Virus record (IMG/VR): IMGVR_UViG_3300045912_000940
Coordinates: 1 to 27,513 of that record
Reading direction: 5' to 3' (one strand)
From: a virus
DNA: 27,513 nucleotides
Of this stretch, positions 742 through 21,173 are shown piece after piece. Each line of letters starts with the position of its first letter. The stretch's first letter is position 1. The notes beneath the pieces are model-generated. The model did not search any database, was not told where the DNA came from, and saw only the letters and a list, made by a program, of their open reading frames with translations. The position numbers and the translations under genes were made by a program.

Positions 742-804
742 CGGGCGTTGTTTTTTGATTCGGTGTTTACTGTTCAGGGAACGGGAAACACCATCGGAGG
801 GCCC

Positions 805-2956: not shown

Positions 2957-3163
2957 GCATTTTCGCTTCGCGGTCGCGGCCCCGATCTCGTGCGGGGCTG
3001 TCGCAAACCGCGACACGCCGGGCGGCCGGTAAGGCCGTGAGGCGTTCATAACCCGGCAGTCAAAAGCGCTCGTGCGGTTTCGCGGTGAGGCACCGCGACG
3101 CGACGCTCCTGCTCCTCAAGAGCGGATGACCGTGGTTGACAGCTTCCGGCCCCGGAGGCTGTC
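2957..3163 (+). promoter_or_regulatory. Structured non-coding leader of the sigma-like gene
   Basis: This 207-base stretch has no credible gene and can form five successive hairpins. Hairpin 1 spans 2968-3013: TCGCGGT/ACCGCGA outer stem, GCG/CGC middle, GCCCCG/CGGGGC inner stem with an 8-base loop. Hairpin 2 spans 3015-3045: ACGCC/GGCGT and CGGCC/GGCCG with a GGTAA loop. Hairpin 3 spans 3065-3107: AGCG/CGCT, TCG/CGA, CG/CG, then TCGCGGTG/CACCGCGA with a 3-base loop. Hairpin 4 spans 3111-3123: GCTC/GAGC. The last hairpin (3138-3163) covers the downstream ribosome site. An alternative pairing, GCCGGG 3017-3022 with CCCGGC 3052-3057, competes with hairpin 2, so a switch is conceivable. The region is GC-rich, which raises the chance of fortuitous stems. 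It could instead be a small RNA or simply a transcription terminator region for the upstream cassette. Confidence 0.5.
3138..3163 (+). promoter_or_regulatory. Hairpin sequestering the ribosome binding site
   Basis: GACAGC (3138-3143) pairs with GCTGTC (3158-3163). A T-G wobble and TCCG/CGGA continue the stem to a four-base GCCC loop, giving 11 pairs. The only good Shine-Dalgarno sequence for the next gene, GGAGG at 3154-3158, lies in the 3' arm, and the GTG start (3164) immediately follows the stem. Translation of the sigma-like protein should therefore be low unless the stem is opened. The geometry is seen directly. The regulatory role is inference. Confidence 0.6.
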
Positions 3164-3748
3164 GTGGACAGTACGCACGGGAAAGATTTCGTTCTCACGG
3201 ATTACGCCAAGAAACTCATCAGGTTCAAGGCTCGCCAACTCTGCCGGCGTCGCGATTTCCTCACTTCCGATCAAGACGATCTTCAGCAGGAACTCTGGCT
3301 GATGGTTTGTGAACGCGCCGATGGGTTCAATCCGGCGAAGGCCTCCCTCAACACGTTCATCGACCGGGTCGTCAATTCGGCGGTCGCCCAGATCGTGCGG
3401 AATCGTGAACGGCTCAAACGCGGCAAAGGCGGGCACGTCGTTTCGCTCGACGGCGAAGACAGTCACCGCGCGCGGCCAAGTCCGATGTCCAGCGGGCTTT
3501 CTCCCGAACACCTCTACCGGCGTATCGGCGTTTATCCAGCGGACCCCATCACCGTTCGGGAAACCGCCGAAGCGGTCCAAGCCGTCCTCATGCGAATGCC
3601 GGAAGATCTGCGGGAGATTTGCCTTTGCTTGATGAACGGCACAGCGAACTCCGTCGCGTGCGACATGCACATTTCGCGTCGCGCGTTGCGAAAGGCCTGT
3701 CTCGTGATTCGGGAGTTTCTCGAACGAGCCGGACTCGAAAACGGCTGA
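3164..3748 (+). CDS. Sigma-70-family-like transcription factor encoded by the phage
   Basis: This 194-residue protein has the layout of a minimal (ECF-sized) sigma factor. Residues about 12-88 look like region 2: DDLQQELWLMVCERADGFNP, then SLNTFIDRVVNSAV and a basic RNRERLKRGK helix. A linker (about 90-130) follows. Residues about 132-190 look like a region 4 helix-turn-helix: MPEDLREICLCL, turn, HISRRALRKACLVIREFL. It would bind host core RNA polymerase and redirect it to phage promoters. The start is GTG 3164, with GGAGG 5 bases upstream but locked in a hairpin. The next in-frame Met falls inside region 2. It sits just before the replication operon and next to the first copy of a repeated 33-bp element that could be its promoter. 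Divergence from classical sigma factors is high, so a non-sigma HTH role remains possible. Confidence 0.72.
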   Translation: MDSTHGKDFVLTDYAKKLIRFKARQLCRRRDFLTSDQDDLQQELWLMVCERADGFNPAKASLNTFIDRVVNSAVAQIVRNRERLKRGKGGHVVSLDGEDSHRARPSPMSSGLSPEHLYRRIGVYPADPITVRETAEAVQAVLMRMPEDLREICLCLMNGTANSVACDMHISRRALRKACLVIREFLERAGLENG

Positions 3749-3750
3749 TC

Positions 3751-3783
3751 GCGGACAACTCGCTTGCAAACGGCGTAGGTAAC
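3751..3783 (+). repeat. 33-bp split intergenic element, copy 1
   Basis: The element consists of GCGGACAACTC, five variable bases, then CAAACGGCGTAGGTAAC. A second copy at 15165-15197 has the same blocks and spacing, with 27 of 33 positions identical and all five spacer bases different. This copy lies two bases after the stop codon of the sigma-like gene and 43 bases before the first gene of the replication block. Read as a promoter, CGGACA (3752-3757) and TAGGTA (3776-3781) are 18 bases apart, a normal -35/-10 spacing. The promoter function is inference. It could also be an operator or a processing site. Confidence 0.6.
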
Positions 3784-3807
3784 TGCCGTGGCTCCTGCAC
3801 GGCAGTT
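3781..3807 (+). promoter_or_regulatory. Perfect 10-bp hairpin in the replication-operon leader
   Basis: AACTGCCGTG (3781-3790) and CACGGCAGTT (3798-3807) are perfectly complementary around a 7-base loop. Only a short pyrimidine run (CTTCCC) follows, so it is a weak terminator at best. It overlaps the last three bases of the 33-bp element. It could end messages from the sigma-like gene, act as an attenuator, or be an operator dyad. Confidence 0.45.
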
Positions 3808-3826
3808 CTTCCCACGAGGACAACCG

Positions 3827-4132
3827 ATGAACAAAACCCTTCGATTTGAGTTTCGACCCAGCGTGCCGATTGCCGAAGCCGAGGCGACCTTGCACCTCGC
3901 CATGTACGCGGTTGAAGGTCTGGTCGGTCGCGTTCACGTCGAGTTGGATGCCGATTTCGACATCGGGAAACGCGTCATTCTCATCGACGAAAGCACCTTC
4001 ACCGGCTGGTTGATTGCCCGCGTCTTCGCTGGATTGATCGCCCGCGAATTCGGCGAAGGTGCATACGAGGTCTACCGACAAGCTTCTTGCGCGTTGTCCG
4101 GCCCCAACAAAACTCAGGAGGCTTGCGCGTGA
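3827..4132 (+). CDS. Small unknown protein, first gene of replication operon
   Basis: This 101-residue protein has no family I recognise. ATG 3827 is chosen because GAGGA lies at 3816-3820. An upstream in-frame GTG at 3788 would sit inside the hairpin. The protein is mixed alpha/beta, with an acidic centre (VELDADFDIGKRVILIDES) and a predicted helix rich in Ala/Leu before a Ser/Cys-containing tail. It has no signal peptide and no motif. Its stop overlaps the GTG start of the Sak4-like ATPase gene, so it belongs to the same coupled message. It may be an accessory early protein. Confidence 0.7.
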   Translation: MNKTLRFEFRPSVPIAEAEATLHLAMYAVEGLVGRVHVELDADFDIGKRVILIDESTFTGWLIARVFAGLIAREFGEGAYEVYRQASCALSGPNKTQEACA

Positions 4133-4914
4133 GCTTGCTTTCCAAGATTCAACACGGTCGCACACCGCGACCGCCCCGGCTGCTCGTTTACGGCACGCCT
4201 GGCATCGGCAAGTCCACCTTCGGCGCGCAGGCCCCGAATCCGGTGTTCGTGCCGACCGAGGACGGCCTCGACGAGATCGACTGCGCCAAGTTCCCGCTCG
4301 CGGCCACGCTTGACGAGGTGGCCGCCGCACTCGCGGAACTCCGCACGCAGCCACACGATTTCGAATCGGTCGTTCTCGATTCGCTCGACTGGCTGGAGCG
4401 GCTGATCTGGGACCGAGTGTGCGCCGACTTCAGCGTGAAGAACATCGAGAAGGCCGATGGCGGTTACGCTCGCGGCTACACCCACGCTCTCACCTACTGG
4501 CGCGATGTCATCGACCAACTCAACCTGTTGCGGAGTCAGCGCGGCATGGTGGTCGTGCTGATCGCCCACGCGAAGGTCGAGAAGTTCGAGGACCCCGAAG
4601 CACCGCCTTATGACCGCTACTCGCCCCGGCTGCACAAGCATGCTTCCGCGCTCGTGAGCGAATGGTGCGACGCGGTGCTGTTCGCGACGCGGAAGTTCCG
4701 CACGCAGAGCGACGACGCCGGGTTCGGCCGCAAGCGGACCATCGCCCACGCCATTGGCAAGGACGGCGGCGAGCGCGTCCTGCGCACCATCGGCGGCCCA
4801 GCGTGTGTCGCCAAGAACCGCTACGGACTGACCGAAGAACTGCCCCTGTCTTGGGCGGCGTTCATGGCTGCTCTTTCCACTCACCAACCCAACGAGGAAC
4901 CGACCCATGGCTAA
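4129..4914 (+). CDS. Sak4-like AAA ATPase (phage recombinase family)
   Basis: This 261-residue RecA-fold ATPase is of the AAA_24/Sak4 kind, which phages use for single-strand annealing and strand exchange together with an SSB. Walker A is GTPGIGKST (residues 22-30) and Walker B is VVLDSLDW (81-88). Further conserved-looking parts are the VVLIAHAKVEKFEDP stretch and the RYSPRLHKHASALVSEWCDAVLFA region typical of these proteins. The start is GTG 4129, overlapping the preceding stop (GTGA), with AGGAGG at 4116-4121. The gene is followed by the DUF669 gene with an 8-base overlap, a standard recombination pairing. Cytoplasmic. The fold is certain. Its exact recombination activity is inferred from family and context. 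Confidence 0.85.
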   Translation: MSLLSKIQHGRTPRPPRLLVYGTPGIGKSTFGAQAPNPVFVPTEDGLDEIDCAKFPLAATLDEVAAALAELRTQPHDFESVVLDSLDWLERLIWDRVCADFSVKNIEKADGGYARGYTHALTYWRDVIDQLNLLRSQRGMVVVLIAHAKVEKFEDPEAPPYDRYSPRLHKHASALVSEWCDAVLFATRKFRTQSDDAGFGRKRTIAHAIGKDGGERVLRTIGGPACVAKNRYGLTEELPLSWAAFMAALSTHQPNEEPTHG

Positions 4915-5374
4915 CCTGAACGGCTTCGATGCCAACACCGTGGAGCCGACCAGCGACTTCGAGCCGATCCCGGCCGGCAAGTACCTCGCCGTCATCACCG
5001 AGAGCGAGATGAAGTCGAACAAGGCCGGCACCGGCAGTTACTTGCAACTCACCTTCGAGGTGATCGAGGGGCCGTACAAGGGTCGCTACCTTTGGGCGCG
5101 ACTTAACCTCGACAACCCGAACGCGACGGCGGTCACCATCGCCCGCGCGGAACTGTCCGCGATCTGTCGCGCCGTCAGTGTGCTGGCCCCGAAGGACTCC
5201 GTCGAGTTGCACAACCTGCCCTTGGTGATCCACGTCAAGTGCAAGAAACGCGACGACACCGGCGAGGTTACCAACGAAGTGAAAGGCTACTCGTCCAAGT
5301 CTACTTCGGCCGAGCAGCCCGCAGCCAAGCCCGTGCCGACAACCAACGGCACCCCGCCGTGGAAGCGGTCGTAA
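4907..5374 (+). CDS. DUF669 family protein, probable single-strand DNA-binding partner
   Basis: This 155-residue protein matches the DUF669 pattern. An N-terminal region contains FEPIPAGKYLAVITESEMK and a LQLTFEVIEGPYKGRYLW core. Downstream comes a LNLDNPNATAV segment, then a Ser/Thr/Pro-rich tail ending PPWKRS. DUF669 proteins regularly sit next to Sak4-type ATPases in phages and are thought to be OB-fold, SSB-like or recombination-mediator proteins. The start is ATG 4907, inside the end of the ATPase gene, with GAGGA at 4894-4898. The C-terminus is not acidic, unlike bacterial SSB. DNA binding is a family-level inference. Confidence 0.82.
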   Translation: MANLNGFDANTVEPTSDFEPIPAGKYLAVITESEMKSNKAGTGSYLQLTFEVIEGPYKGRYLWARLNLDNPNATAVTIARAELSAICRAVSVLAPKDSVELHNLPLVIHVKCKKRDDTGEVTNEVKGYSSKSTSAEQPAAKPVPTTNGTPPWKRS

Positions 5375-5388
5375 CCGGAGACGCTGCC

Positions 5389-5733
5389 ATGCTCGAAGTG
5401 GAACTGCCGTACCCGCCGTCAATCAACCACTACTGGCGGCGGGTCGGCCACGCGACGCTCATCAGCCGCGAGGGGCGGCGGTTCCGCGCCAGCGTGGTGG
5501 CCATCCTCGCCGCTCTGCGGCCTGAACCACTGGCCGGCGACTTGGCTGTCGAAGTTGAGGTCTACCCGCCCGACAACCGCCGGCGCGACATCGACAACGT
5601 GCAGAAGGCCCTGCTCGATGCGCTTCAGCATGGCGGGGCCTACGCGGACGATAGCCAAGTCGTCCGCCTCACGATCACCAAGTGCTCGCCCGTCGCGGGT
5701 GGGAAAACCATTGTTCGCATCCGGTGTATCTGA
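5389..5733 (+). CDS. rusA: RusA-family Holliday junction resolvase
   Basis: This 114-residue endonuclease (E. coli RusA has 120) cuts Holliday junctions or branched replication intermediates before packaging. Family signatures are visible: an N-terminal PPSINHYW strand-loop, and the catalytic segment RRRDIDNVQKALLDAL giving D67, D69, N70 and K73. The second acidic pair is D87/D88 in AYADDSQV. These align with the Asp/Lys residues of RusA. ATG 5389 has CCGGAG 8 bases upstream, and a longer reading back to 5239 would cover the DUF669 gene and is not needed. The helicase gene starts directly after its stop. Confidence 0.92.
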   Translation: MLEVELPYPPSINHYWRRVGHATLISREGRRFRASVVAILAALRPEPLAGDLAVEVEVYPPDNRRRDIDNVQKALLDALQHGGAYADDSQVVRLTITKCSPVAGGKTIVRIRCI

Positions 5734-7428
5734 ATGTTGCAATTGCGGCCCTATCAACGGGAAGCCATCGACGCGGTGTACGCGCACCTGCGCACGCGCG
5801 ACGATAACCCGTGCGTGGTGATCCCCACCGCCGGCGGGAAAACGCCCGTCATCGCGTCGATCTGCAAGGACGCGGTCGGGCTGTGGGGCGGGCGAGTCCT
5901 CATCCTGGCGCACGTCAAGGAGTTGCTCGAACAAGCGGCGGACAAACTCCGAACGGTGTGCCCCGATGTGCCGTTCGGCGTTTACTCAGCGGGCCTCAAG
6001 CGGCGTGATCGGCGCGAGCCGGTGATCGTCGCCGGGATTCAGTCGGTCTGGAAGAAGGCGTGCGAGTTCGATCCGTTCGACTTGGTGATTGTGGACGAGG
6101 CGCACCTCATCCCACCGGAAGGCGACGGGATGTACCGGCAGTTCCTCGACGACGCCAAGACGGTGAACCCGAACCTGCGGATCATCGGCTGCACCGCGAC
6201 GCCGTACCGTCTGAAGTCGGGCACGATCTGCACGTCCGACGGCTTCTTGAACCACGTGTGTTACGAGGTGGGTGTTCGCGAATTGATCGTGCAGGGCTAC
6301 CTCTGCCCCCTCATCTCGAAGGCCGGACGCACGAAGGCGGACACCAGCGCGCTGCACGTTCGGGGTGGCGAGTTCATCGCCGGCGAGGTCGAAGAGCTGA
6401 TGGACGATGCCGCGCTGGTCGAAGCCGCCTGCGCCGAGATCGTCGAGCAGACGCGAACTCGCAACGCGGTATTGATGTTCGCCAGTGGTGTGAAACACGG
6501 CGAACACATCGTCTCGGTGTTGAAGGCGAAGCACGACGTTGAGTGCGGTTTCGTCACCGGCGATACGCCGACCAACGAACGCGATGCGATCTTGGCGAGT
6601 TTCAAGGCGGGCGACCTGAAGTTCCTGTGCAACGTCAACGTGCTGACGACTGGTTTCGACGCGCCGCACATCGATTGTGTGGCGCTGGTGCGGCCGACGC
6701 TCTCGCCCGGCCTCTACTACCAGATGGTCGGGCGTGGCTTCCGCCTGCACCCGTCAAAGACAAACTGCGTCGTCCTCGACTTCGGCGGTAACGTGCTGCG
6801 GCACGGTCCGGTCGATCAGATTCGCGTGAAAGAACGCGACGCGGGCAATGGCCAAGCTCCCGCGAAGGAGTGCCCCGAGTGCCACGCCGTCATCGCGGCC
6901 GGCTACGCCGTGTGCCCTGAATGCGGTTACGAGTTCCCGCCGCCCGAGCGTTCCAAGCATGATGCCAAGGCAAGCGAGGCCGGCATACTGTCGGGTCATG
7001 TGACAGTCGAAACGTTCGCGGTTCACGACGTGGTGTACAGCGTCCACACCAAGCGCGGCGCGGGCGACGACGCGCCGAAGTCGCTCCGTGTCGATTACAA
7101 GGTCGGCTGGCATCGCTGGAAATCGGAGTGGGTTTGCCTCGAACACACTGGTTACGCGCGAGGAAAGGCGGTCGCGTGGTGGAAGAAGCGGTCGCGGTTG
7201 CCGGTCCCGACGACTGCGGTCGAAGCGGTCGAGATTGCGAAAGCCGGTGGGTTGGCTGACACGAAGTCGATCACCGTGCGTTCAGTCACGGGTGAGGAAC
7301 ACGACCGCATCACCGATCACCAGTTTGGGCCGATCCCGGAAGCAATCGAGCGACCAGAACCGGAGGAAGAGGAACTCTTCCCGTTCGGCTACAACGTGGC
7401 GACCACGGAGGAGGAAATTCCGTGGTGA
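5734..7428 (+). CDS. SF2 DEAD/DEAH-type helicase with C-terminal zinc ribbon
   Basis: This 564-residue helicase drives phage DNA replication or recombination (RadD/UvsW-like). The motifs occur in order: Q-motif-like LRPYQREAI (4-12), Walker A PTAGGKT (31-37), DEAH box VDEAH (120-124), motif III CTATP (153-157), motif V TTGFDAPHID and motif VI QMVGRGFR (330-337). A four-cysteine zinc ribbon follows: C380-x2-C383 and C394-x2-C397, ending CGYEFPPPE. About 160 more residues of an uncharacterised C-terminal region include a WHRWKSEWVCLEHTGYARGK patch. ATG 5734 abuts the rusA stop codon with no spacer and no strong Shine-Dalgarno site, so it probably depends on translational coupling. The helicase assignment is firm. 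The pathway is inferred from neighbours. Confidence 0.92.
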   Translation: MLQLRPYQREAIDAVYAHLRTRDDNPCVVIPTAGGKTPVIASICKDAVGLWGGRVLILAHVKELLEQAADKLRTVCPDVPFGVYSAGLKRRDRREPVIVAGIQSVWKKACEFDPFDLVIVDEAHLIPPEGDGMYRQFLDDAKTVNPNLRIIGCTATPYRLKSGTICTSDGFLNHVCYEVGVRELIVQGYLCPLISKAGRTKADTSALHVRGGEFIAGEVEELMDDAALVEAACAEIVEQTRTRNAVLMFASGVKHGEHIVSVLKAKHDVECGFVTGDTPTNERDAILASFKAGDLKFLCNVNVLTTGFDAPHIDCVALVRPTLSPGLYYQMVGRGFRLHPSKTNCVVLDFGGNVLRHGPVDQIRVKERDAGNGQAPAKECPECHAVIAAGYAVCPECGYEFPPPERSKHDAKASEAGILSGHVTVETFAVHDVVYSVHTKRGAGDDAPKSLRVDYKVGWHRWKSEWVCLEHTGYARGKAVAWWKKRSRLPVPTTAVEAVEIAKAGGLADTKSITVRSVTGEEHDRITDHQFGPIPEAIERPEPEEEELFPFGYNVATTEEEIPW

Positions 7429-9572
7429 CACCGGGCGAACTGCTGACCGCTGCTCTGCGCTACGCCGAGATGGGCTACCGCGTGTTTCCCTGTTGGCCCG
7501 GCAGCAAGAAGCCGTTGACCGAACACGGATTCCACGATGCATCGACCGACACCGCTCAGATTGAAGAATGGTGGGGGAAGCACCCACGCGCCAACATCGG
7601 CATCGCGACCGAGGGGATGCTCGTCGTGGACATTGACGGCGCGAACAACCCTTGGCCCGGCGATCCCGAACGCGCCACCGATCTGGCGGGCGCGGGGGCA
7701 GTTGCGCAGACACCCCGCGGCGGCCGACATTTCCTGTTCCGGCGACTGGAAGGGAAAGCGTGGAAGTGCTCCACAGGCCAGTTCGCTCGCGGCGTTGATG
7801 TCCGCACTGACGGCGGTTACATCGTCGCGGCACCGTCCGAAATCAAAGAAGGACCATACCGCTGGGCCGAGACGCTCGAACTTGAAGACCGCCTCGCACA
7901 GTTGCCCGAACCGCCCGTGTGGTTGGTCGCGGAACTCGACCGGTTGGCGAACGGTTCGCCAAAGGTGGCCACAGGAACGCCCACGGTGGCCAACGTCGCG
8001 ACTTCTCCAGCCGACGCCAACGCGATCCCGTCGGGCCAACGCAACGCGACACTCGCGAAACTGGCGGGCGCGATGCGCCGCATTGGGATGGGGCAAGTGG
8101 AAATTGCCGCCGCGCTTCACCAGACGAACCGCGTCCGGTGCTGCCCTCCACTGGCTGAGCGCGAAGTGGACCGGATCGCGATCAGCGTCGCGCGGTACGC
8201 GCCGGACGAGATCGCGGTGGCGATGGCCGAAAACCACTTCGATCAGATGTACGCGGCAGCCGATGCCGTGTCGGACGAAGAGCCCGAACTGCCCGATCCC
8301 GGCCCGATCCCCGACGAGCTGCTCCGCGTGCCGGGCTTTATCGACGAGGTAATGCAGTACACGCTCGATACAGCGCCGTACCCGGAACCGGTGCTGGCCT
8401 TCGCTGGGGCGCTGACGCTGCAAGCATTGCTTGCCGGTCGGAAGGTTCGCGATGCGATGGACAACCGCACGAACCTCTACGTCCTCAGTCTCGCGAACTC
8501 CGGCGTCGGGAAAGACCACGCGCGCAAGGTCAACGCACGCATTCTCTACGAGGCTGGTCTCGCGGATTGCCTTGGAACATCGTTCGCCTCGGGTGAAGGG
8601 ATTGAAGACCGCTTGTTTGTGCAGCCAGCGACGCTCTTCCAGGTCGATGAGATCGACGGACTTCTGCTGCGGGTTGGTCAGGCACGCGACGCTCGGCACG
8701 AAGCCATCGTCTCCATGCTTTTGCAGATGTATTCGTCGGCATCCAGCATCTACGTCATGCGGGCGAAGGCGAATCAAGAGCGATCAGTGATCGACCAACC
8801 GTGTTTGTGCTTGTTTGGCACCGCCGTGCCCAAGCACTTTTACGAAGCGATCTCGGCACGGCTCATGACCAACGGCTTCTTGGCCCGCTTGCTCATTCTC
8901 GAATGCCGGGGTCGCGGGGTCGGTCGCGACGACACCGAAGGACCGATCCCGGCATCGATCCTTGAGGGCGCTCGCTGGTGGGCCGACTTCCGCCCCGGCG
9001 CATCGGGCAACCTCGCCGACTGGCATCCAACGCCGACCCGCGTGCCGCAAACCGACGAAGCGGCGGTCATATTCCGCGACATCCGCGAACGTGCCGACGC
9101 CGAGTATGCCCGCTGCGAACGTGTGAACGATCCCGCGGGCATGGCGATCTGGGCACGGGCTTACGAGAAGGCCCGACGGCTCGCCTTACTCCACGCGGTA
9201 AGCGCGTGTCGCGACAACCCGATCATCACACCCATCGCGGCGACTTGGGCTGGCTCATTCGTCGAACACCAGACCCGGCGGATGCTCTACATGGCGCGGC
9301 AGTACGCCAGCGAGAGCGAGTTCGACGGCAAACGGAAACGATTGCTCGATGTGTTGGATCAATGGCGACGGCAGCACGGTGACGAATGGATGCCCTTCTG
9401 GAAGGTGAACCGGAAGCTGCCGTGGTCGAACCGCGAACACGAGGAAGTCCGCGAGACTCTCCTGCAACAGCGGCTGATTGAATCGCAACTGCACACGACC
9501 GGCCGACGCGGACGTCCGGGCCTGTTCTACCGGCTCACGCCGACGGTCGGCACGACGGAGGGAAGCGCATGA
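7422..9572 (+). CDS. Bifunctional primase-polymerase / DUF3987 helicase-like replication protein
   Basis: This 716-residue protein combines priming and a P-loop ATPase. The N-terminal prim-pol domain (about 1-150) shows WPGSKKPLTEHGF, the catalytic D70-I-D72 in VVDIDG, TPRGGRHFLF (98-106) and VDVRTDGGYIVAAPS. A small helical domain (about 205-260) resembles a primase C-terminal module. Residues about 300-560 form a DUF3987-type ATPase: NSGVGKD (359-365) as Walker A, QVDEID with D409/E410 as Walker B, then the GTAVPKHFYEAIS segment. GTG 7422 overlaps the helicase stop, with GGAGGAGG at 7407-7414. No separate DNA polymerase gene lies in the window, so replication probably uses host polymerase loaded at primers made here. 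Confidence 0.88.
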   Translation: MVTPGELLTAALRYAEMGYRVFPCWPGSKKPLTEHGFHDASTDTAQIEEWWGKHPRANIGIATEGMLVVDIDGANNPWPGDPERATDLAGAGAVAQTPRGGRHFLFRRLEGKAWKCSTGQFARGVDVRTDGGYIVAAPSEIKEGPYRWAETLELEDRLAQLPEPPVWLVAELDRLANGSPKVATGTPTVANVATSPADANAIPSGQRNATLAKLAGAMRRIGMGQVEIAAALHQTNRVRCCPPLAEREVDRIAISVARYAPDEIAVAMAENHFDQMYAAADAVSDEEPELPDPGPIPDELLRVPGFIDEVMQYTLDTAPYPEPVLAFAGALTLQALLAGRKVRDAMDNRTNLYVLSLANSGVGKDHARKVNARILYEAGLADCLGTSFASGEGIEDRLFVQPATLFQVDEIDGLLLRVGQARDARHEAIVSMLLQMYSSASSIYVMRAKANQERSVIDQPCLCLFGTAVPKHFYEAISARLMTNGFLARLLILECRGRGVGRDDTEGPIPASILEGARWWADFRPGASGNLADWHPTPTRVPQTDEAAVIFRDIRERADAEYARCERVNDPAGMAIWARAYEKARRLALLHAVSACRDNPIITPIAATWAGSFVEHQTRRMLYMARQYASESEFDGKRKRLLDVLDQWRRQHGDEWMPFWKVNRKLPWSNREHEEVRETLLQQRLIESQLHTTGRRGRPGLFYRLTPTVGTTEGSA

Positions 9573-9748
9573 GCGAATTATTGCCTTTCTTGTTGTTATT
9601 GCAGCCACCCGCGATGGAGAGCGGAGAGGGAGAATCGAGAGGTAGCGCAAGAACAGCAAGAAATACAAGAAATCCTCTTCTCCCTCTTCTCTCTTCCTAC
9701 TTCGGCTCGACCGATGCTCGGTGGAGTATGAATCGTCATCCCCAATAG
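9569..9748 (+). CDS. Possible 59-residue hydrophobic-start peptide (doubtful)
   Basis: An ATG overlaps the preceding stop (ATGA) and opens a 59-codon frame. It has a hydrophobic start (MSELLPFLLLLQPP) and a low-complexity Ser/Gly/Arg middle. Its codons are unlike the neighbours: TTA and TTG runs are rare elsewhere here. Much of it is a purine-rich tract followed by a pyrimidine-rich tract, which may be the real reason for the composition. It could be a small membrane peptide or non-coding sequence. Confidence 0.25.
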   Translation: MSELLPFLLLLQPPAMESGEGESRGSARTARNTRNPLLPLLSSYFGSTDARWSMNRHPQ

Positions 9749-9849
9749 GTACTTCCGGCGCGATCTCGCTTTCGTGACGCCCGCGGGAACAGCCGCGCTA
9801 CAGGACACAGTTTGTTTTCGCTGTCCGAACTTCTGAGAGGCCACCCGCC
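9573..9849 (+). other. Leader region before the methyltransferase gene
   Basis: This stretch has a strand-asymmetric tract. GAGGGAGAA at 9626-9634 can pair with TTCTCCCTC at 9678-9686, and the intervening DNA goes from purine-rich to pyrimidine-rich. Downstream are two small hairpins: CGCGG/CCGCG around a 6-base loop (9782-9797) and GGACA/TGTCC (9803-9826). No T-tract terminator or clear promoter is seen. The doubtful short frame at 9569-9748 is the only coding candidate. A shift from replication to modification genes occurs here, so a promoter or processing site is plausible but not shown. Confidence 0.35.
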
Positions 9850-11160
9850 ATGAAAGTCGAACTGTGGAAGATCACCGACGTGAAGGCGTACCCCGGCAAC
9901 CCGCGTCAGAACGACGACGCGGTTGATGCGGTCGCGGCGTCGCTTCGCGAGTTCGGGTTCCGCCAGCCGATTGTCGTCGATACCGAAGGTGTCATCGTCT
10001 GCGGTCACACCCGGTACAAGGCCGCGCTCAAGCTCGGCTTGGAGAAAGTGCCGGTCCACGTTGCCAAAGACCTGACCGCTGAGCAGATCCGCGCCTACCG
10101 CATTGCGGACAACCAGACCGCGTCGCTCGCGACGTGGGACTACGACCTGCTGCCCATCGAACTCGCCGGGTTGAAGGAGGCCAACTATGACCTCGGCTTG
10201 CTCGGTTTCGACACCGACGAGTTGGCGAAGTTGCTCGACCCGACGCTGAAGGATGGTCTGACCGACCCGGACGAGATTCCTGCACCGCCTGACGAAGCGA
10301 TCACCCAACCCGGTGACCTGTGGCTGCTCGGCGATCATCGCTTGCTCTGCGGAGATTCGTCGAAGCCCGCCGATGTGGATCGCCTGTTGGGTGGCGCGAT
10401 GATCCACCTGGTGAACACGGACCCGCCGTACAACGTGAAGGTCGAGCCGCGTTCCAACAACGCTATCGCCGCCGGCCTGTCCTCGTTCGCCGGCACCACG
10501 CACCACCAGAAACTCGACGTCGAACGCCACCCTGAGAAGGCCAAACCCACGGGCAAGAAGCTGCGGGCGAAGGATCGTCCGCTGGCCAACGACTTCGTCT
10601 CCGACGCGGAGTTCGACCGGCTACTCGCGGCGTGGTTCGGCAACATCGCCCGCGTGCTGGAACCGGGTCGCGGGTTCTACATCTGGGGCGGTTACGCCAA
10701 CTGCGCCAACTACCCGCCGGTGCTGAAGGCGTGCGAACTCTACTTCTCGCAGGCGGTCATCTGGGTGAAGGAGCACCCGGTGCTGACCCGCAAGGACTTC
10801 ATGGGCAACCACGAGTGGTGCTTCTACGGCTGGCGCGAGGGCGCGGCCCACGTCTACCTCGGCCCGAACAACGCGACCGACGTGTGGAGCGTGAAGAAGG
10901 TGAACCCGCAGTCGATGGTCCACCTCACCGAGAAGCCCGTTGAACTCGCGGTGCGGGCGATGCAGTACTCGTCGCGTGAAGGCGAGCATGTTCTCGACCT
11001 CTTCGGCGGGAGCGGTTCGACGCTGATCGGCGCGCAGCAGACTGGGCGCAAAGCGTTCTTGATGGAACTCGATCCGCTCTATTGCGATGTGATCGTCCAG
11101 CGTTGGGAGAAGTTCACGGGCAAGAAAGCGGAACGCATCAGCGCGGAGGTGCCAGCATGA
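9850..11160 (+). CDS. ParB-like nuclease domain fused to beta-class DNA methyltransferase
   Basis: This 436-residue protein has two parts. Residues 1 to about 95 are a ParB/Srx-like domain with GHTRYKAA (52-59) and an IRAYRIADNQTA segment. The rest is an amino-group DNA methyltransferase: DPPYN (191-195, motif IV) precedes DLFGGSGST (383-391, motif I), the beta-class order. The call is N6-adenine or N4-cytosine specificity. TEKPVELA (about 358-365) precedes motif I as in many phage and plasmid enzymes. A 60-residue Lys/His-rich insertion follows DPPYN. The likely role is protection of phage DNA from host restriction or epigenetic timing. Recognition sequence unknown. ATG 9850 has GAGAGG about 9 bases upstream. 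The next gene overlaps by ATGA. No cognate restriction enzyme gene is nearby. Confidence 0.92.
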   Translation: MKVELWKITDVKAYPGNPRQNDDAVDAVAASLREFGFRQPIVVDTEGVIVCGHTRYKAALKLGLEKVPVHVAKDLTAEQIRAYRIADNQTASLATWDYDLLPIELAGLKEANYDLGLLGFDTDELAKLLDPTLKDGLTDPDEIPAPPDEAITQPGDLWLLGDHRLLCGDSSKPADVDRLLGGAMIHLVNTDPPYNVKVEPRSNNAIAAGLSSFAGTTHHQKLDVERHPEKAKPTGKKLRAKDRPLANDFVSDAEFDRLLAAWFGNIARVLEPGRGFYIWGGYANCANYPPVLKACELYFSQAVIWVKEHPVLTRKDFMGNHEWCFYGWREGAAHVYLGPNNATDVWSVKKVNPQSMVHLTEKPVELAVRAMQYSSREGEHVLDLFGGSGSTLIGAQQTGRKAFLMELDPLYCDVIVQRWEKFTGKKAERISAEVPA

Positions 11161-11528
11161 TCTACTTGGCAAGCCCGTACTCGCATCCCGACCCGATGGT
11201 CCGTGAACAACGCTTCCTCGCGGCGTGTCGGGCAACGGTCACGCTGATCCGGGCGGGCGAAGTCGTCTTCTCGCCGATCGTCCACAGCCACGCGCTGGTC
11301 GAGTTCGAGTTACCGACCGCATGGTCATTCTGGGAACGCATCGACCGCGCTCACATGGAACGGTGCGACGAGGTCGTGGTGTTGATGCTCGACGGGTGGG
11401 CGCAGAGCGTTGGCGTGCGGGAAGAGTTGCGGATCGCGCGGGAGTTGGGCAAACCAGTGCGGTTCCTCGAGGTGGACGCCACCGGTTCGCCCACGTTGGC
11501 GCGAGTTGCGTCGGAGGGCAACCGTTGA
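11157..11528 (+). CDS. DUF1937 protein, nucleoside deoxyribosyltransferase-like fold
   Basis: This 123-residue protein begins MIYLASPYSHPDP, the hallmark of DUF1937, a family related in fold to nucleoside 2-deoxyribosyltransferases. It also has the C-terminal half expected of that fold: CDEVVVLMLDGW (70-81), then SVGVREEL (84-91). The Glu pair there sits where deoxyribosyltransferases carry a catalytic Glu. Such proteins may process nucleotides or nucleosides during infection. ATG 11157 overlaps the methyltransferase stop, and GGAGG lies at 11145-11149. Tight coupling with a DNA methyltransferase makes a nucleotide or DNA modification role attractive, but no substrate is known. Confidence 0.8.
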   Translation: MIYLASPYSHPDPMVREQRFLAACRATVTLIRAGEVVFSPIVHSHALVEFELPTAWSFWERIDRAHMERCDEVVVLMLDGWAQSVGVREELRIARELGKPVRFLEVDATGSPTLARVASEGNR

Positions 11529-11547
11529 CAAAACCCCGACCAACGAG

Positions 11548-11569
11548 AAAACGCCGCGTGTCGCGGCGT
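11548..11569 (-). terminator. Intrinsic terminator of the minus-strand island
   Basis: Read on the minus strand, ACGCCGCG and CGCGGCGT form an 8-bp perfect stem around a 3-base loop, followed by TTTTC. It lies 27 bases past the stop of the HARE-HTH gene. On the plus strand the stem is followed by CGTGGG rather than a T run, so termination should be mainly for minus-strand transcripts. Confidence 0.75.
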
Positions 11570-11595
11570 CGTGGGCGAAAGGGTGGCCGGTTGCG

Positions 11596-12042
11596 TCAGG
11601 CGTTCTTCGTCGCGGCGAAGTGGCCCTTGCTCGCCTTGGTGAATCGGGCCTCTTTCCCCTTTGTGTTGATCTCGCGGAGGATCGCCGCGAAGAGCGTCGC
11701 GTGCGGGGTCTTGCCGCCGGGGCTGGTCCAGAGGCCCTTCTTGGCCATCGCCTCGATCAGGGCCTTGGCGTTCATCGGCTCGCCCGCGTCGGCAAGCACC
11801 TTCGCGGCCGCGTCGAGGGCGCTCATCTTCTTGGATTTGGCCTCCGCCTTCGCGTTCTTGGCAGTCTTCGCCTTGCCGGGTTTCTTGCTCGCCTTGGCGG
11901 GGGGCGGTGCGATCTCGACCAAGATTCCCCCACCCGCATCGATGATGTCCGGTGCGGGCGTTTGCTCCGGGGCCTTCGCGGTCTTCGTGGCCTTGGGGTT
12001 CTTGGTCGTCGCGGTCTTCTTGGTGGTCTTCTTCGCGCTCAT
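11596..12042 (-). CDS. HARE-HTH domain protein with Lys/Ala-rich tail
   Basis: This 148-residue protein has two regions. Residues 1-72 are basic, disordered and Lys/Ala/Thr/Pro-rich (MSAKKTTKKTATTK and several KAK-type motifs), resembling histone-tail or DNA-coating segments. Residues 73-143 match the winged-helix HARE-HTH domain (HB1, ASXL, restriction endonuclease): MSALDAAAKVLADAGEPMNA, then ALIEAMAKKGLW, TPHATLFAAILREI and a final FTKASKGHF. This domain occurs in restriction-linked and chromatin proteins and has been proposed to sense modified DNA. ATG 12042 has GAGGA 8 bases upstream; an in-frame ATG five codons earlier is possible. It is encoded opposite to everything else, next to a DNA methyltransferase gene. 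Confidence 0.82.
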   Translation of the reverse strand: MSAKKTTKKTATTKNPKATKTAKAPEQTPAPDIIDAGGGILVEIAPPPAKASKKPGKAKTAKNAKAEAKSKKMSALDAAAKVLADAGEPMNAKALIEAMAKKGLWTSPGGKTPHATLFAAILREINTKGKEARFTKASKGHFAATKNA

Positions 12043-12083
12043 GGTCTTCGTCCTCATTCGTGGTGTTTGGCTGCCATCTTCAG

Positions 12084-12121
12084 GCGGCGGGAGCCACCCG
12101 CCGCGACCCGCGAAAGCGGGT
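12084..12121 (-). other. Tandem hairpins between the two minus-strand genes
   Basis: Two stems lie back to back. GCGGCGGG (12084-12091) pairs with CCCGCCGC (12097-12104), and ACCCGC (12106-12111) pairs with GCGGGT (12116-12121) around a GAAA loop as read on the plus strand. On the minus strand they fall between the 73-residue gene and the HARE-HTH gene, where they could stabilise, process or attenuate the message. No T run follows on the minus strand. Confidence 0.45.
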
Positions 12122-12128
12122 TTCGGCT

Positions 12129-12350
12129 TCACTCTCCGCGTTGGCTCCGGTCGAGGAATGTTTCGATTTCCTTGAGCAGGTAGTTGACCCGCGCAAGGTC
12201 GCCGATGTGTCCGTAGTGGATCGGTTGGTCGGCGTTGCCCGGCGCGGGGAGGTCTTGGAGCAGGTTGCCGATCCGTTCCAGCAGGGCGATGGCCTTGGCG
12301 TGTTCGGCGGTGCACTCGCGTTCGATCTTGGCTCTCTTGGCGTCGGTCAT
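12129..12350 (-). CDS. Small helical unknown protein, first gene of minus-strand island
   Basis: This 73-residue protein is not recognised. It starts at ATG 12350 with GGAG 8 bases upstream. A longer in-frame reading to 12401 lacks a ribosome site. The sequence is largely helical and charged: MTDAKRAKIERECTAEHAKA, then LLERIGNLLQDL, a PAPGNADQPIHYGHIGDL loop, and NYLLKEIETFLDR. No metal or nucleotide motif is present. It is transcribed away from the packaging genes and upstream of the HARE-HTH gene on the same strand. Coiled or dimeric helical proteins of this size can be regulators or anti-restriction factors, but that is only a guess. Confidence 0.6.
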   Translation of the reverse strand: MTDAKRAKIERECTAEHAKAIALLERIGNLLQDLPAPGNADQPIHYGHIGDLARVNYLLKEIETFLDRSQRGE

Positions 12351-12473
12351 GGTCGAGTCTCCGGTTGATAATGTTCGCGTGTCCATTGCACGCGATGACA
12401 ACAGTTACAGCCGGTTCGCGGAACATGGAAGCGCAGTAAAACCCGAATTCCTGAGGTTTTTCGAGGATTCGAC
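12351..12473. promoter_or_regulatory. Divergent intergenic region with inverted repeats
   Basis: This 123-bp gap separates the minus-strand island from the plus-strand packaging genes and should hold promoters for both. It contains a 7-bp perfect dyad, TCGCGTG (12375-12381) and CACGCGA (12389-12395), with a 7-base spacer. A smaller dyad, GTTC-GCG-GAAC, lies at 12414-12424. TTCGCG is shared by both dyads, and CCGGTT occurs at 12361 and 12411. These look like operator sites. No convincing -35/-10 pair could be assigned by eye. Confidence 0.45.
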
Positions 12474-12686
12474 ATGCCGCCTGAAGGCGCCAAATCGACG
12501 CTCAATCCCACCGCGCTTTCAGTCGCGGACGCGGCCCGGATGCTGGCGCGTGTGAGTGGATTCGGTGTGACCGAAGCGATGATCCGTGCGGACATCGACG
12601 CGGGCGCGCCGACCAACACAGACGGAACGATCAACTTGGTTCACTACGCGGCGTGGTTGGTCGCGGAGGAAGGACATGGCGACTGA
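12474..12686 (+). CDS. Small HTH protein, terminase small-subunit candidate
   Basis: This 70-residue protein sits immediately before the terminase large-subunit gene and overlaps it by 11 bases. Residues about 15-66 (SVADAARMLARVSGF, a VTEAMIRADIDAG turn-helix, then INLVHYAAWLVAEE) resemble a MerR/excisionase-type or terminase-type winged helix. The same pattern recurs at the N-terminus of the downstream large terminase (LKPSELCRLLNS, then VDLIRYVAWLVSQ), so the two domains look related. Small terminases bind the packaging site on phage DNA, and position and size fit that role. ATG 12474 has GAGGA at 12463-12467. The function is inferred from context and this similarity. Confidence 0.6.
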   Translation: MPPEGAKSTLNPTALSVADAARMLARVSGFGVTEAMIRADIDAGAPTNTDGTINLVHYAAWLVAEEGHGD

Positions 12687-14943
12687 TCCGCGACGGCTGA
12701 AGCCTTCCGAACTCTGCCGCTTGCTGAACTCGACCCCGCGTGGCGAGGTCATCAGCGAACGGCAGCTCTATCGCCATCGCTCTCGCGCCGGGATGCGGAT
12801 CGGCGACGGGAAGCACGTCGATCTCATCCGCTACGTCGCGTGGCTGGTCTCCCAGCGCCACGCCCCGAAACCGGAACCAGCCGGCGATCCCTACGAGGAA
12901 TTGAAGACCCGCTCGCGGGCGCGGAACCTCGCGCTGTCTCTGGCTGGTCGGGATATTGGTGAATTGCCGGACGTGGTGGACCCCGAACGAAAGGCGCGGG
13001 CCGCGTCGGACTTTCGCTTCTTCTGCGACAGTTACTTCCCGCTGACGTTTTCACTGCCGTGGTCCGACGACCACCTCAAGGTGATCGGGCGAATCGAGCA
13101 GGCAGTGTTGCGCGGCGGACTCTTTGCGATGGCGATGCCGCGTGGGTCGGGAAAGAGCTCGATCTCGGAGTGCGCCTGTATCTGGGCGGTGCTGTACGGG
13201 CACCGCGAGTTCGTGTGCCTGATCGGGAGTGACGAAGGGCACGCGATGGACATGCTCGACGCCATCAAGATGGAACTCGATGGCAACGATTTGTTGCTCG
13301 AAGACTTCCCCGAGGTCGTTTACCCGATCCAGTGTCTCGACGGGATCGCTAACCGCTGCAACGGGCAGCTTTACAAGGGCGAGCGAACGCACATCGGCTG
13401 GACGGCGCGGGAAGTCGTGTTGCCAACGATTGAGGAGAGCAAGGCGTCCGGCGCGATCATCAAGGTTGCGGGCATCACCGGGCGGATTCGGGGCATGAAG
13501 TACAAGCGCGCCGACGGCAAGACTGTGCGACCGTCGCTCGTCGTACTCGACGACCCACAGACGGATGAATCGGCGCGGTCGCTGTCGCAGTGCGTCACTC
13601 GCGAGAGCATCCTCGCCGGGGCGGTGTTGGGGTTGGCCGGTCCAGGTCGGAAGATCAGCGGCATCATGCCCTGCACGGTCATCCGCCCCGGCGACATGGC
13701 CGACAACATCCTCTCGCGCGACAAACATCCGGAGTGGAACGGAGAACGGACCAAGATGGTCTACTCGTTCCCGACCGATGAAGCGTTGTGGAAAAAGTAC
13801 GCTGAACTCCGCGCGGCAAGTCTGCGTGAAGGGCGTGAGGGCGTTGAGGCGACCGAGTTCTACCGCGTCAACCAAGAAGCGATGGACGCGGGTTCGCGCG
13901 TGGCGTGGCCGGCGCGGTTCAACCACGACGAACTCTCCGGCATTCAGCACGCGATGAACCTGCGGCTCCAAGATGAGGCTGCGTTCTTCGCGGAGTACCA
14001 GAATGAACCGCTGCTCGAAGAAGTCGCCGGCGACGACGAACTGACCGCTGACCAGATCGCGGGGAAGTTTAACCGACGCGGTCGCGGGGAGGTGCCGCTG
14101 GCGTGCGGTCGCATCACGGCATTTATCGACGTGCAGGGAAGTTTGCTGTTCTGGGTCGTGTGCGGGTGGGAGGACGACTTCACCGGCTACGTTCTTGATT
14201 ACGGTGCGTGGCCGGACCAGCGCCGCGCGTACTTCACGCTCCGCGAGGCGAACCCGACGCTGGCGATTGCCACTGGCGCGGCAGGAATCGAAGGCGCAAT
14301 CTATCAGGGTCTTGAGAAGTTGACCGCCGCGATCCTCGGTCGCGACTGGCCGCGCGACGACGGCGCGGTTCTGCGGATCGAGCGCTGCTTGATCGATGCC
14401 AACTGGGGAACCTGCACGGATGTCGTTTACCAGTTCTGCCGCGAGTCGGCGCACGCTTCGGTGCTGATGCCGTCGCACGGTCGGTTCGTCGGGGCATCGA
14501 GCCAGCCGTTCAGCGAGTACAAGCGACGGCCCGGTGACCGCGTCGGCCACCACTGGCGCATCCCGAACGTGCAAGGGAAGCGCGCCGTCCGGCATGTTCT
14601 CTTCGACACCAACTTCTGGAAGTCATTCGTGCAGGCCCGGCTCGCAGTGCTTTTGGGCGACCGCGGCTGTCTGTCACTCTTTGGCGACCACGCCGAGACG
14701 CACCGGCTCTTCGCCGACCACCTGACCGCCGAGTACCGCGTGAAGACCGAGGGGCGTGGCCGCACGGTGGACGAGTGGAAGATTCGTCCCGAGCGCAGCG
14801 ACAACCACTGGCTCGACGGCGTGGTCGGCTGCGCCGTCGCCGCGTCAATGCAGGGCTGTTCTTTGCCCGGCACTGATGTGAAGCCCGCGCCGAAACGCGA
14901 GCGGGTGAGTTTCGCGGAACTTCAACGGAGTAAACGACGATGA
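12676..14943 (+). CDS. Terminase large subunit with N-terminal HTH domain
   Basis: This 755-residue packaging motor cuts and translocates phage DNA into proheads. It carries an N-terminal DNA-binding-like domain (about 8-64) similar to the preceding 70-residue protein. The ATPase follows, with Walker A PRGSGKSS (155-162) and Walker B VVLDD plus PQTDE (289-298). The RNase H-fold nuclease region begins near ITAFIDVQGS (D485), with a later acidic cluster around RSDNHWLDGVVGCA. At 755 residues it is longer than common phage terminases (about 400-650), partly because of the HTH extension. ATG 12676 has GGAGGAAGGA directly upstream. The next gene overlaps by ATGA. Confidence 0.9.
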   Translation: MATDPRRLKPSELCRLLNSTPRGEVISERQLYRHRSRAGMRIGDGKHVDLIRYVAWLVSQRHAPKPEPAGDPYEELKTRSRARNLALSLAGRDIGELPDVVDPERKARAASDFRFFCDSYFPLTFSLPWSDDHLKVIGRIEQAVLRGGLFAMAMPRGSGKSSISECACIWAVLYGHREFVCLIGSDEGHAMDMLDAIKMELDGNDLLLEDFPEVVYPIQCLDGIANRCNGQLYKGERTHIGWTAREVVLPTIEESKASGAIIKVAGITGRIRGMKYKRADGKTVRPSLVVLDDPQTDESARSLSQCVTRESILAGAVLGLAGPGRKISGIMPCTVIRPGDMADNILSRDKHPEWNGERTKMVYSFPTDEALWKKYAELRAASLREGREGVEATEFYRVNQEAMDAGSRVAWPARFNHDELSGIQHAMNLRLQDEAAFFAEYQNEPLLEEVAGDDELTADQIAGKFNRRGRGEVPLACGRITAFIDVQGSLLFWVVCGWEDDFTGYVLDYGAWPDQRRAYFTLREANPTLAIATGAAGIEGAIYQGLEKLTAAILGRDWPRDDGAVLRIERCLIDANWGTCTDVVYQFCRESAHASVLMPSHGRFVGASSQPFSEYKRRPGDRVGHHWRIPNVQGKRAVRHVLFDTNFWKSFVQARLAVLLGDRGCLSLFGDHAETHRLFADHLTAEYRVKTEGRGRTVDEWKIRPERSDNHWLDGVVGCAVAASMQGCSLPGTDVKPAPKRERVSFAELQRSKRR

Positions 14944-15137
14944 GGGAGACCCAATCGAAGCGATCCGAACGCGGCATCCGCTGCCCATGCTGTGGTTGTC
15001 GCCGGTTCAAGACAACCCACACAGAACCGCTTCCAGATGGTCGGATTCGTCGACGTAAGGAATGCTTGGATTGCCACCGGAAGGTGGTCACGTTTGAGTC
15101 CGTTTTCACTTCGACATCTTCGGATCGCCATATGTAG
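14940..15137 (+). CDS. NrdR-type zinc-ribbon mini-protein
   Basis: This 65-residue protein is essentially one zinc ribbon: CPCCGC near residue 15, a TTHTEPLPDGRIRRRKECLDC stretch, then HRKVVTFE. The spacing and the IRRRKEC-x2-C ... TFE pattern closely follow the N-terminal ribbon of NrdR, the repressor of ribonucleotide reductase genes. The ATP-cone domain of NrdR is absent, and the tail is a short Ser/Thr-rich end. It could bind DNA or RNA polymerase, or act as a late-gene regulator like small phage zinc-finger activators. ATG 14940 overlaps the terminase stop (ATGA), so it is translated with the packaging genes. Confidence 0.68.
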   Translation: MRETQSKRSERGIRCPCCGCRRFKTTHTEPLPDGRIRRRKECLDCHRKVVTFESVFTSTSSDRHM

Positions 15138-15164
15138 CAGTCATTTCGCGGAAATCCTCGGCTT

Positions 15165-15197
15165 GCGGACAACTCAAAAACAGACGGCGTAGGTAAC
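15165..15197 (+). repeat. 33-bp split intergenic element, copy 2
   Basis: The same GCGGACAACTC block, a five-base spacer (here AAAAA) and CAGACGGCGTAGGTAAC are found 27 bases after the zinc-ribbon gene and 66 bases before the pre-portal gene. It precedes the long structural gene block, as copy 1 at 3751-3783 precedes the replication block. CGGACA (15166-15171) and TAGGTA (15190-15195) are again 18 bases apart. No further copy was found in the other gaps of the window by reading. Confidence 0.6.
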
Positions 15198-15202
15198 GAG
15201 CG

Positions 15203-15248
15203 AGGCCCATGCACTGGAATCAGCATTCGGTTCCGAAGTGGCCTTTTT
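15203..15248 (+). terminator. Terminator-like hairpin in the structural-operon leader
   Basis: AGGCC (15203-15207) pairs with GGCCT (15240-15244). The stem continues through ACT/AGT and GGAA/TTCC with small internal loops and is followed by five Ts (15244-15248). It resembles an imperfect intrinsic terminator. It lies just downstream of the second 33-bp element and upstream of the first structural start at 15264. It may end the packaging transcript or attenuate the structural one. Confidence 0.5.
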
Positions 15249-15263
15249 CGTGGACTTACGCCA

Positions 15264-15461
15264 ATGCCCGACGATCTCGACGAAACCATCGAGCAGAACG
15301 CGAAGGGACCGGCGAAGGCATCGGGCGACGCCGGCTCGGTCGAGCAACACTCCCTCCCGGACCAGATTGAGGCCGACCGCTACCTCGCGTCCAAGGAAGC
15401 CGCCAAGCAGCCGCAACGCGGATTGCGCTTCAACAAACTCGTTCCGCCGGGGGCCGACTGA
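15264..15461 (+). CDS. Small pre-portal protein
   Basis: This 65-residue protein lies between terminase and portal genes, where many siphophages carry a short head-assembly protein. The C-terminal half, DRYLASKEAAKQPQRGLRFN plus KLVPPGAD, is the recognisable part and is common in this position in other phages. The N-terminal half is acidic and disordered. No strong Shine-Dalgarno sequence precedes ATG 15264. The portal gene starts directly after its stop. A head-tail joining or gpW-like role is possible but not shown. Confidence 0.68.
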   Translation: MPDDLDETIEQNAKGPAKASGDAGSVEQHSLPDQIEADRYLASKEAAKQPQRGLRFNKLVPPGAD

Positions 15462-21091: not shown

Positions 21092-21173
21092 TCAGAGGGC
21101 AGAGGACAGCAGTGCATTCACCGACCTCTGTCTTCTGACCTCCATCTCCTGACCTTTGAACCCAAGGAGCATC
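21092..21173 (+). other. Gap with a 10-bp hairpin before the protease gene
   Basis: CAGAGGACAG (21100-21109) pairs with CTGTCTTCTG (21128-21137) with one G-T wobble across an 18-base loop, just after the tail-tube stop. No T run follows. Two similar runs, TCTGACCTCC and TCCTGACCTT, are close together (about 21135-21157). The gap ends with AAGGAG (21164-21169), the ribosome site of the protease gene. A promoter for an independently expressed moron is possible. Confidence 0.4.

Follow-up and report, generated by a model that had tools for sequence, protein, structure and literature searches.

A predicted phage sigma factor and its two putative start signals appear to have changed together across related Planctomycetota viruses

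Introduction

Sigma factors of the extracytoplasmic function (ECF) type are built of a sigma2 and a sigma4 domain without sigma3, and in bacteria they are usually regulators of the cell. Group IV members of this build have cognate promoters, with a specificity that varies among members (excerpts of PMC3817407). Phages may encode sigma factors with promoters of their own as well. In the excerpts of the published accounts on which we draw here and below, the sigma factor SaPh711_gp47 of Salmonella phage 7-11, which has a region 4, acts with the host core polymerase at eight bipartite promoters before late genes, GTAAtg-16-aCTA (PMC8948821), and the gp36 sigma of coliphage phiEco32 serves middle and late promoters (PMC8948821, PMC4281155, PMC4331800). 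Here we describe a 33-bp split element that occurs twice in a viral DNA of 27,513 nucleotides, IMG/VR record IMGVR_UViG_3300045912_000940 (the whole stretch is called the window below), once beside a gene for a predicted ECF-type sigma factor and once before the portal operon.

The proposed system resembles that of 7-11 in its phage-encoded sigma with region 4, its use of the host core polymerase and its bipartite promoters before late genes. It differs in host and motif, and transcript starts were measured in 7-11 and are predicted from sequence here (PMC8948821). With phiEco32 it shares a phage sigma serving more than one set of phage genes, unlike the phiEco32 promoter, which is a single element, and its sigma, which is without homology to region 4 (PMC8948821). 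The two described phages have the places of their promoters in common and differ in motif; their sigma genes were judged to be independently acquired (PMC8948821), whereas a single sigma family has diversified in the viruses considered here. For 7-11, a stem-loop next to the sigma gene has been proposed to help expression (PMC8948821), and the hairpins behind the window elements resemble it by analogy only. Unlike in the bacterial ECF systems, the sigma genes are phage genes and phage operons lie behind the elements.

Results

Two copies of a split element and the adjacent gene

The sequence GCGGACAACTC-N5-CARACGGCGTAGGTAAC is present without mismatch at 3751-3783 (+) and 15165-15197 (+), so that the two identically spaced copies of the first-pass annotation are exact. 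No third copy was found in the window at up to 3 mismatches, with 0 in 100 dinucleotide shuffles. The free spacer letters are wholly unlike (GCTTG at site 1, AAAAA at site 2). The starts of the blocks had been given as 24 bases apart; as drawn they are 16 apart, and GCGGACA and GTAGGT are the parts separated by 24. The features concerned are the following.

3164-3748 (+): gene for the predicted phage sigma factor (194 aa, start codon GTG); ECF build with sigma2 and sigma4, no sigma3
3751-3783 (+): element A, promoter-like; -35 GCGGACA at 3751-3757, -10 region ACGGCGTAGGTAAC at 3770-3783
15165-15197 (+): element B, promoter-like; -35 GCGGACA at 15165-15171, -10 region ACGGCGTAGGTAAC at 15184-15197

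Element A begins two bases past the stop codon of the 194-aa gene, and element B sits between a small zinc-ribbon gene (14940-15137) and a small gene at 15264. A consensus scan of positions 1-16000 for host sigma70 promoters (TTGACA / TATAAT, 16-18 spacing) yielded two sites, neither of them at the element.

A search of PHROGs with the product of 3164-3748 led to a distant sigma family (E 1e-5). Among 40 members of its family Sigma70_r2 was recognised at E≤0.01 in 33 and Sigma70_ECF in 8, and the alignment of these 40 relatives was the input for an AlphaFold2 model and for a family profile. The model (pLDDT 84, pTM 0.46) has confident helical domains at residues 13-87 and 128-188, joined by a loose linker of low confidence. 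Foldseek titles in the 50 rows shown were mostly sigma factors or transcription initiation complexes; none of these rows reached E 0.001 against the PDB, the best being 2e-3. In VIA-align the sigma4 part matched sigmaE region 4 bound to -35 DNA (2h27, Z 8.7, 67 residues, 3.5 A) and SigD region 4 (3vfz, Z 8.8, 60 residues, 2.3 A), and the N-terminal part the SigE N-terminal domain (8b3z, Z 8.7, 76 residues, 2.2 A), values near 9 on small helical domains being modest evidence alone. The single sequence matched solved structures weakly (best E 0.43, SigW), and the profile of 40 members found ECF SigE chains (best E 1e-7). Because the domain Z values combine with this profile match, the assignment of the product as an ECF-type sigma factor, by predicted fold, is firm. 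Model, domain matches and profile together give sigma2 and sigma4 joined by a linker and no sigma3, which is the ECF build. The earlier description of the gene as sigma-like is borne out by weak Pfam and NCBIfam matches (values in the Discussion) and by the sigma factors in the Foldseek and VIA-align rows.

The element in related viruses

An exact scan of IMG/VR for the element gave five contigs. Relatives were collected by portal search (best 80 of at least 598 loci), by AAA-ATPase search (best 80 of 325 loci) and by terminase search of GTDB genomes (best 80 of 294). Among these 80 terminase relatives, 76 are titled Planctomycetota (Gemmataceae, Pirellulaceae, Phycisphaerae and others, named isolates included), and the other four are contigs of metagenome-assembled genomes with the titles Bacteroidales, Fimbriimonadales, Acidobacteria and Leptolyngbya. 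Several terminase relatives lie deep inside isolate chromosomes and are therefore prophages.

A loose scan located the element at the same two places in diverged relatives, again with a 5-nt spacer. The proposed check of spacer variation gave a spacer of 5 in 19 of 19 matches in the fetched relatives, some of these loci being near copies, although 2-9 was permitted. The relatives keep a sigma gene of ECF build, and a -35/-10-like element occurs both behind this gene and ahead of the portal operon. At each of these places the element retains its position, its strand and its division into two blocks, and its letters differ among phages. In a few relatives, e.g. L136, L110 and L160, the sigma gene runs with its 3' end into the element.

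Elements A and B match within a genome

We compared A (the gap after the sigma gene) and B (the gap before the portal block) in contigs holding both places, using a masked match of 11 + 5 free + 17 positions with a score out of 28. Over 42 genomes the mean was 22.5 for own pairs vs 17.3 between genomes, and none of 20,000 label permutations, which remove shared ancestry incompletely, reached the observed total. The A site was set by hand in 36 of the 42 genomes (not in G025, AM2014, BIN18, G004, G034 and G043). In 33 of these 36 the B site agreed with it in 16-21 of 21 letters, and reversed-gap controls reached 10-15 of 21 over all 36. Including G004, G034 and G043, which agree by masked match, own A and B correspond in 36 of 42 genomes, a count that contains some near copies (G034 resembles G033, and Rrub_b resembles G045). 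The distance at B between the -35 7-mer and the -10 14-mer is 12 or 13 nt in 29 of 33 cases, with 11-14 allowed. Two conserved blocks that are spaced as in promoters and share the strand of the operon they precede are as expected of a promoter that depends on a phage sigma.

The elements follow the sigma gene

In 28 of 35 dereplicated genomes the own B site gave a better match than the B site taken from whichever genome had the closest portal, with 4 ties and 3 losses. With portal identity allowed for, similarity of element B was related to sigma4 and sigma2 identity (partial r 0.58 and 0.61, 0/5000; n=34, reached from 39 by dropping G034 and BIN18 and merging near copies). Sixteen pairs with portals at least 90% and sigmas less than 50% identical had a mean element score of 17.5, vs 16.8 for 485 pairs far in both and 27.4 for 7 pairs near in both. 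The five pairs with sigmas at least 60% and portals less than 85% identical averaged 23.4, including one at 17, where one of the two B gaps contains a terminator.

Four strains (Rubripirellula obstinata, Aporhodopirellula aestuarii, SV_7m_r and TBK1r) hold two prophages each with differing elements, and in all four each prophage's own A and B match in 17-21 of 21 letters, the halves having been paired by coordinates. The two prophages of R. obstinata have portals with an identity of 1.00 (rounded) and sigmas with 0.31. In Rhodopirellula rubra one A/B pair matches (18 of 21) and the other does not (12 of 21). The other property expected of a phage-sigma-dependent promoter, that its sequence varies together with the sigma of the same phage, was found with the exception of six genomes. 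As judged from these comparisons, the factor and its two putative start signals appear to have changed together across related Planctomycetota viruses.

Which sigma domain goes with which block

Of 90 A gaps, 87 had a -10 match, and in 65 of these the -35 ended in CA; the 3 and 22 gaps lacking one or the other were left out. Thinning of the 65 left either 54 distinct helix/-35 pairs or 44 sigmas. In the set of 44 the -35 block was related to sigma4 given sigma2 (r 0.50, 0/3000) and little to sigma2 given sigma4 (r 0.12, 50/3000), and the -10 block to sigma2 given sigma4 (r 0.37, 0/3000) and not to sigma4 given sigma2 (r -0.11). Because site A adjoins the sigma gene, the relation was retested at B, which in the window is about 11 kb from A. 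Automatically placed B sites (n=21), of which at least two (TBK1r_a, K23_9) were misplaced according to hand-set registers, again related the -10 block to sigma2 (r 0.66, 0/3000). With hand-set registers (n=28) this value was r 0.56, and the relation of -35 to sigma4 given sigma2 was weak (r 0.24, 3/3000). The A sites of the same 28 genomes gave r 0.28 of -35 with sigma4 and 0.34 with sigma2. Overall, the relation of the -10 block to sigma2 is solid in all of these comparisons, and that of the -35 block to sigma4 is clear among the 44 sigmas at A but modest where fewer genomes were compared.

A relation was also found between the recognition helix and the -35 letters. Helices of the type R[TS][TS] go with GTCA in 24 of 26 distinct cases (listed as CGTCA). 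The 23 RR helices go with GGACA (13), GCGCA (5), GTACA/GTGCA (4) and GTCA (1), and five other helices with GACA (4) or ATCA (1). The association of helix class and -35 class has a Fisher value of 1e-10, uncorrected for kinship and restricted to sites with CA at the -35 end. The window sigma has the helix SRRALRK and the -35 GCGGACA.

Specificity of place and additional copies

Strict class patterns were searched in 2.84 Mb of loci, and 109 of 114 matches were found at A or B (27/27, 15/16, 7/7, 37/38 and 23/26 per class), counts that are not independent, the loci being overlapping and selected by the presence of these genes. Backwards controls gave 0, 0, 0, 0 and 3 matches per class. Copies within genes, which had been named as an outcome speaking against a promoter, are not the rule, given these matches at the expected places and the few elements that reach into the sigma gene at its 3' end. 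A single class pattern, run against three host genomes of about 23 Mb in all, had 8 matches and its control 0. Five of the 8 fall within the two prophages, at two A and two B sites and once on the opposite strand; two lie before serine-recombinase cassettes and one is at G053:C32:643.

An element of the same kind stands before homologous cassettes of two planctomycete genomes (L304:6448-6481 (+) and L305:8812-8844 (+)), which consist of short reading frames, a small gene and a gene for a large serine recombinase whose two versions are 63% identical. These cassettes could be remnants of such phages or elements responding to them. A likely third copy of a phage's own element (CGTCA..GCGGGTAAGTATCC) was noted at L224:4852-4885 (+), before a gene with its ATG at 4934. 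A minus-strand copy inside a prophage, before a minus-strand reading frame, is located at L303:6888 (-) and at the same site in L238 (-).

Genes and hairpins around both sites

The surroundings of the two elements in the window are as follows.

3784-3804 (+): stem TGCCGTG-loop-CACGGCA, directly 3' of element A; predicted 5' end of the transcript
3827-4132 (+): first gene behind element A, 101 aa, without Pfam match
15196-15251 (+): hairpin region past element B, with GGCCTTTTTCG within the 3' arm
15264-15461 (+): first gene behind element B, 65 aa, without Pfam match; precedes the portal gene
15462-16919 (+): portal protein, followed by capsid, cement and head-tail genes

The genes behind site 1 (from 3827, + strand) include an AAA ATPase, DUF669, RusA, a helicase, a primase-polymerase and a methylase, the replication genes running from 4129 on. 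The description of each copy as heading a large operon is fair, with these replication genes behind site 1 and portal and capsid genes behind site 2. The TGCCGTG/CACGGCA stem is also present in the relatives L091 and L094.

The pre-portal gaps of L028, L036, L046, L064, L085, L029, L196, L199, L206 and L251 contain a strong terminator-like hairpin of the AAGGCCATGCGGGGCCGCATCCCCGCGTGGCCTTTTTT type, which occupies the place where other phages have element B. In many pre-portal gaps, e.g. L195, L211 and L049, a recurrent GCTAGATGTAGC-like inverted repeat was seen around the end of the zinc-ribbon gene, 5' of element B. Elsewhere in the window, a Type II hammerhead ribozyme at 12065-12128 (-) (48.2 bits vs a gathering value of 37, E 3e-7) is antisense to genes and upstream of the terminase gene. 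An IrrE/ImmA-like peptidase at 1-741 (+) (Peptidase_M78, E 3e-11) fits a temperate phage, and 21156-22187 (+) encodes a trypsin-like peptidase domain amid structural genes.

Discussion

We consider it highly probable that the 33-bp element serves host core RNA polymerase as a promoter when the enzyme carries the ECF-like sigma encoded by the phage, a prediction made from sequence comparison. The sigma-type promoter suggested by the first-pass annotation has computational support, because the element keeps its place, strand and build while its letters follow the phage's own sigma. We infer binding, the start of transcription by RNA polymerase and its timing as follows. Since element A lies downstream of the sigma gene, sigma would be made early from another promoter; it would then turn on the replication operon from A and the portal and structural operon from B. 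GCGGACA would be the -35 element, read by sigma4, and CGGCGTAGGTAAC would hold the -10 element, read by sigma2, with the free spacer not read. Transcripts would start within about 10 bases past 3783 and 15197, and the hairpins just behind both elements would open them.

Several observations weigh against such a promoter. In 6 of 42 genomes (G019, G025, OFTM264, AM2014, Rrub_a and BIN18) A and B do not match, OFTM264 having a terminator inside its B gap, and the permutations leave some shared ancestry in the comparison. Profile matches of the window sigma lie around their cutoffs: Sigma70_r2 of Pfam just below (E 6e-5, 23.1 vs 24 bits), Sigma70_ECF barely above (E 2e-4, 21.5 vs 21.1 bits) and TIGR02937 of NCBIfam (sigma70-ECF) below (E 1e-8, 35.0 vs 42.9). 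At B the relation of -35 to sigma4 given sigma2 was absent from the automatic test with its misplaced sites (r 0.085, 514/3000; n=21), in which -35 was related to sigma2 (r 0.47), as it also was with hand-set registers (r 0.39, n=28). The clean -35 split is confined to the set of 44 A-site sigmas. As to G019 (L142 A, L066 B), only GACA is common to its A and B, and its sigma has the helix SRRQV, found with GGACA; this genome is possibly a recent recombinant.

The element might instead be the site of another phage regulator that is inherited along with the sigma gene, for example the product of 1934-2956 or that of 748-1992, so that sigma would be a bystander. Both genes lie upstream of sigma within one module with it and are likewise divergent, and the C-terminal part of the 1934-2956 product looks like a helix-turn-helix by eye. 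We regard this as improbable, as the -35/-10 build and the pattern of blocks and domains suit a sigma factor. Furthermore, an iterated profile search of the 36 loci that extend more than 3.3 kb beyond sigma on its upstream side found 748-1992 in 21 and 1934-2956 in 16, where misses may be divergence. That the element is a promoter for a host sigma factor, one varying from host to host, is very improbable. Many young ECF sigma paralogs are described for Gemmataceae (excerpt of PMC8567305), but a host factor is not an easy explanation because four strains hold two prophages whose elements are unlike and which each match themselves, and 5 of the 8 class-pattern matches in three whole genomes fall in two prophages. 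A structured leader RNA (riboswitch or ribozyme) is barely credible: folding of the hairpins past both copies stands out from shuffles for one of two stretches tried at site 2 (z -2.95) and for one stretch at site 1 (z -2.08), but the remaining two stretches are unremarkable (z -1.04 and -0.21), the hairpins are unlike each other, the conserved blocks share no pairing with each other, Rfam up to E 1 gives in the window only the hammerhead elsewhere, and the co-variation with sigma would be left unexplained.

Returning to a promoter read by the phage's own sigma, phage sigmas with promoters of their own are known from phiEco32 and 7-11. Among the open-access papers listed by a search that extended to neither preprints nor subscription journals, we found none that describes the promoters or sigma factors of planctomycete phages, and none that studies phage transcription in Planctomycetota. 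The claim of an unreported promoter class rests on these papers.

On balance we favour the view that these genes and elements form an exchangeable sigma/promoter module in a widespread planctomycete phage and prophage lineage. Each sigma would have its own code, several codes would coexist in one cell through different prophages, and swaps of modules by recombination would keep sigma and both promoters matched. The module would then offer a natural series for the choice of -35 by the sigma4 helix (R[TS][TS]: CGTCA; RR[AQK]: GGACA; RR[KRG][YL]: GCGCA; RRRF: GTRCA). More phages with other sigma/promoter pairs, or hybrids, were predicted by the authors of PMC8948821, and the planctomycete phage sigma family provides dozens of members. 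The family may serve as a natural data set on how sigma domains read promoter bases and as a source of candidate orthogonal sigma/promoter pairs, and it gives a testable model of gene timing for phages of Planctomycetota.

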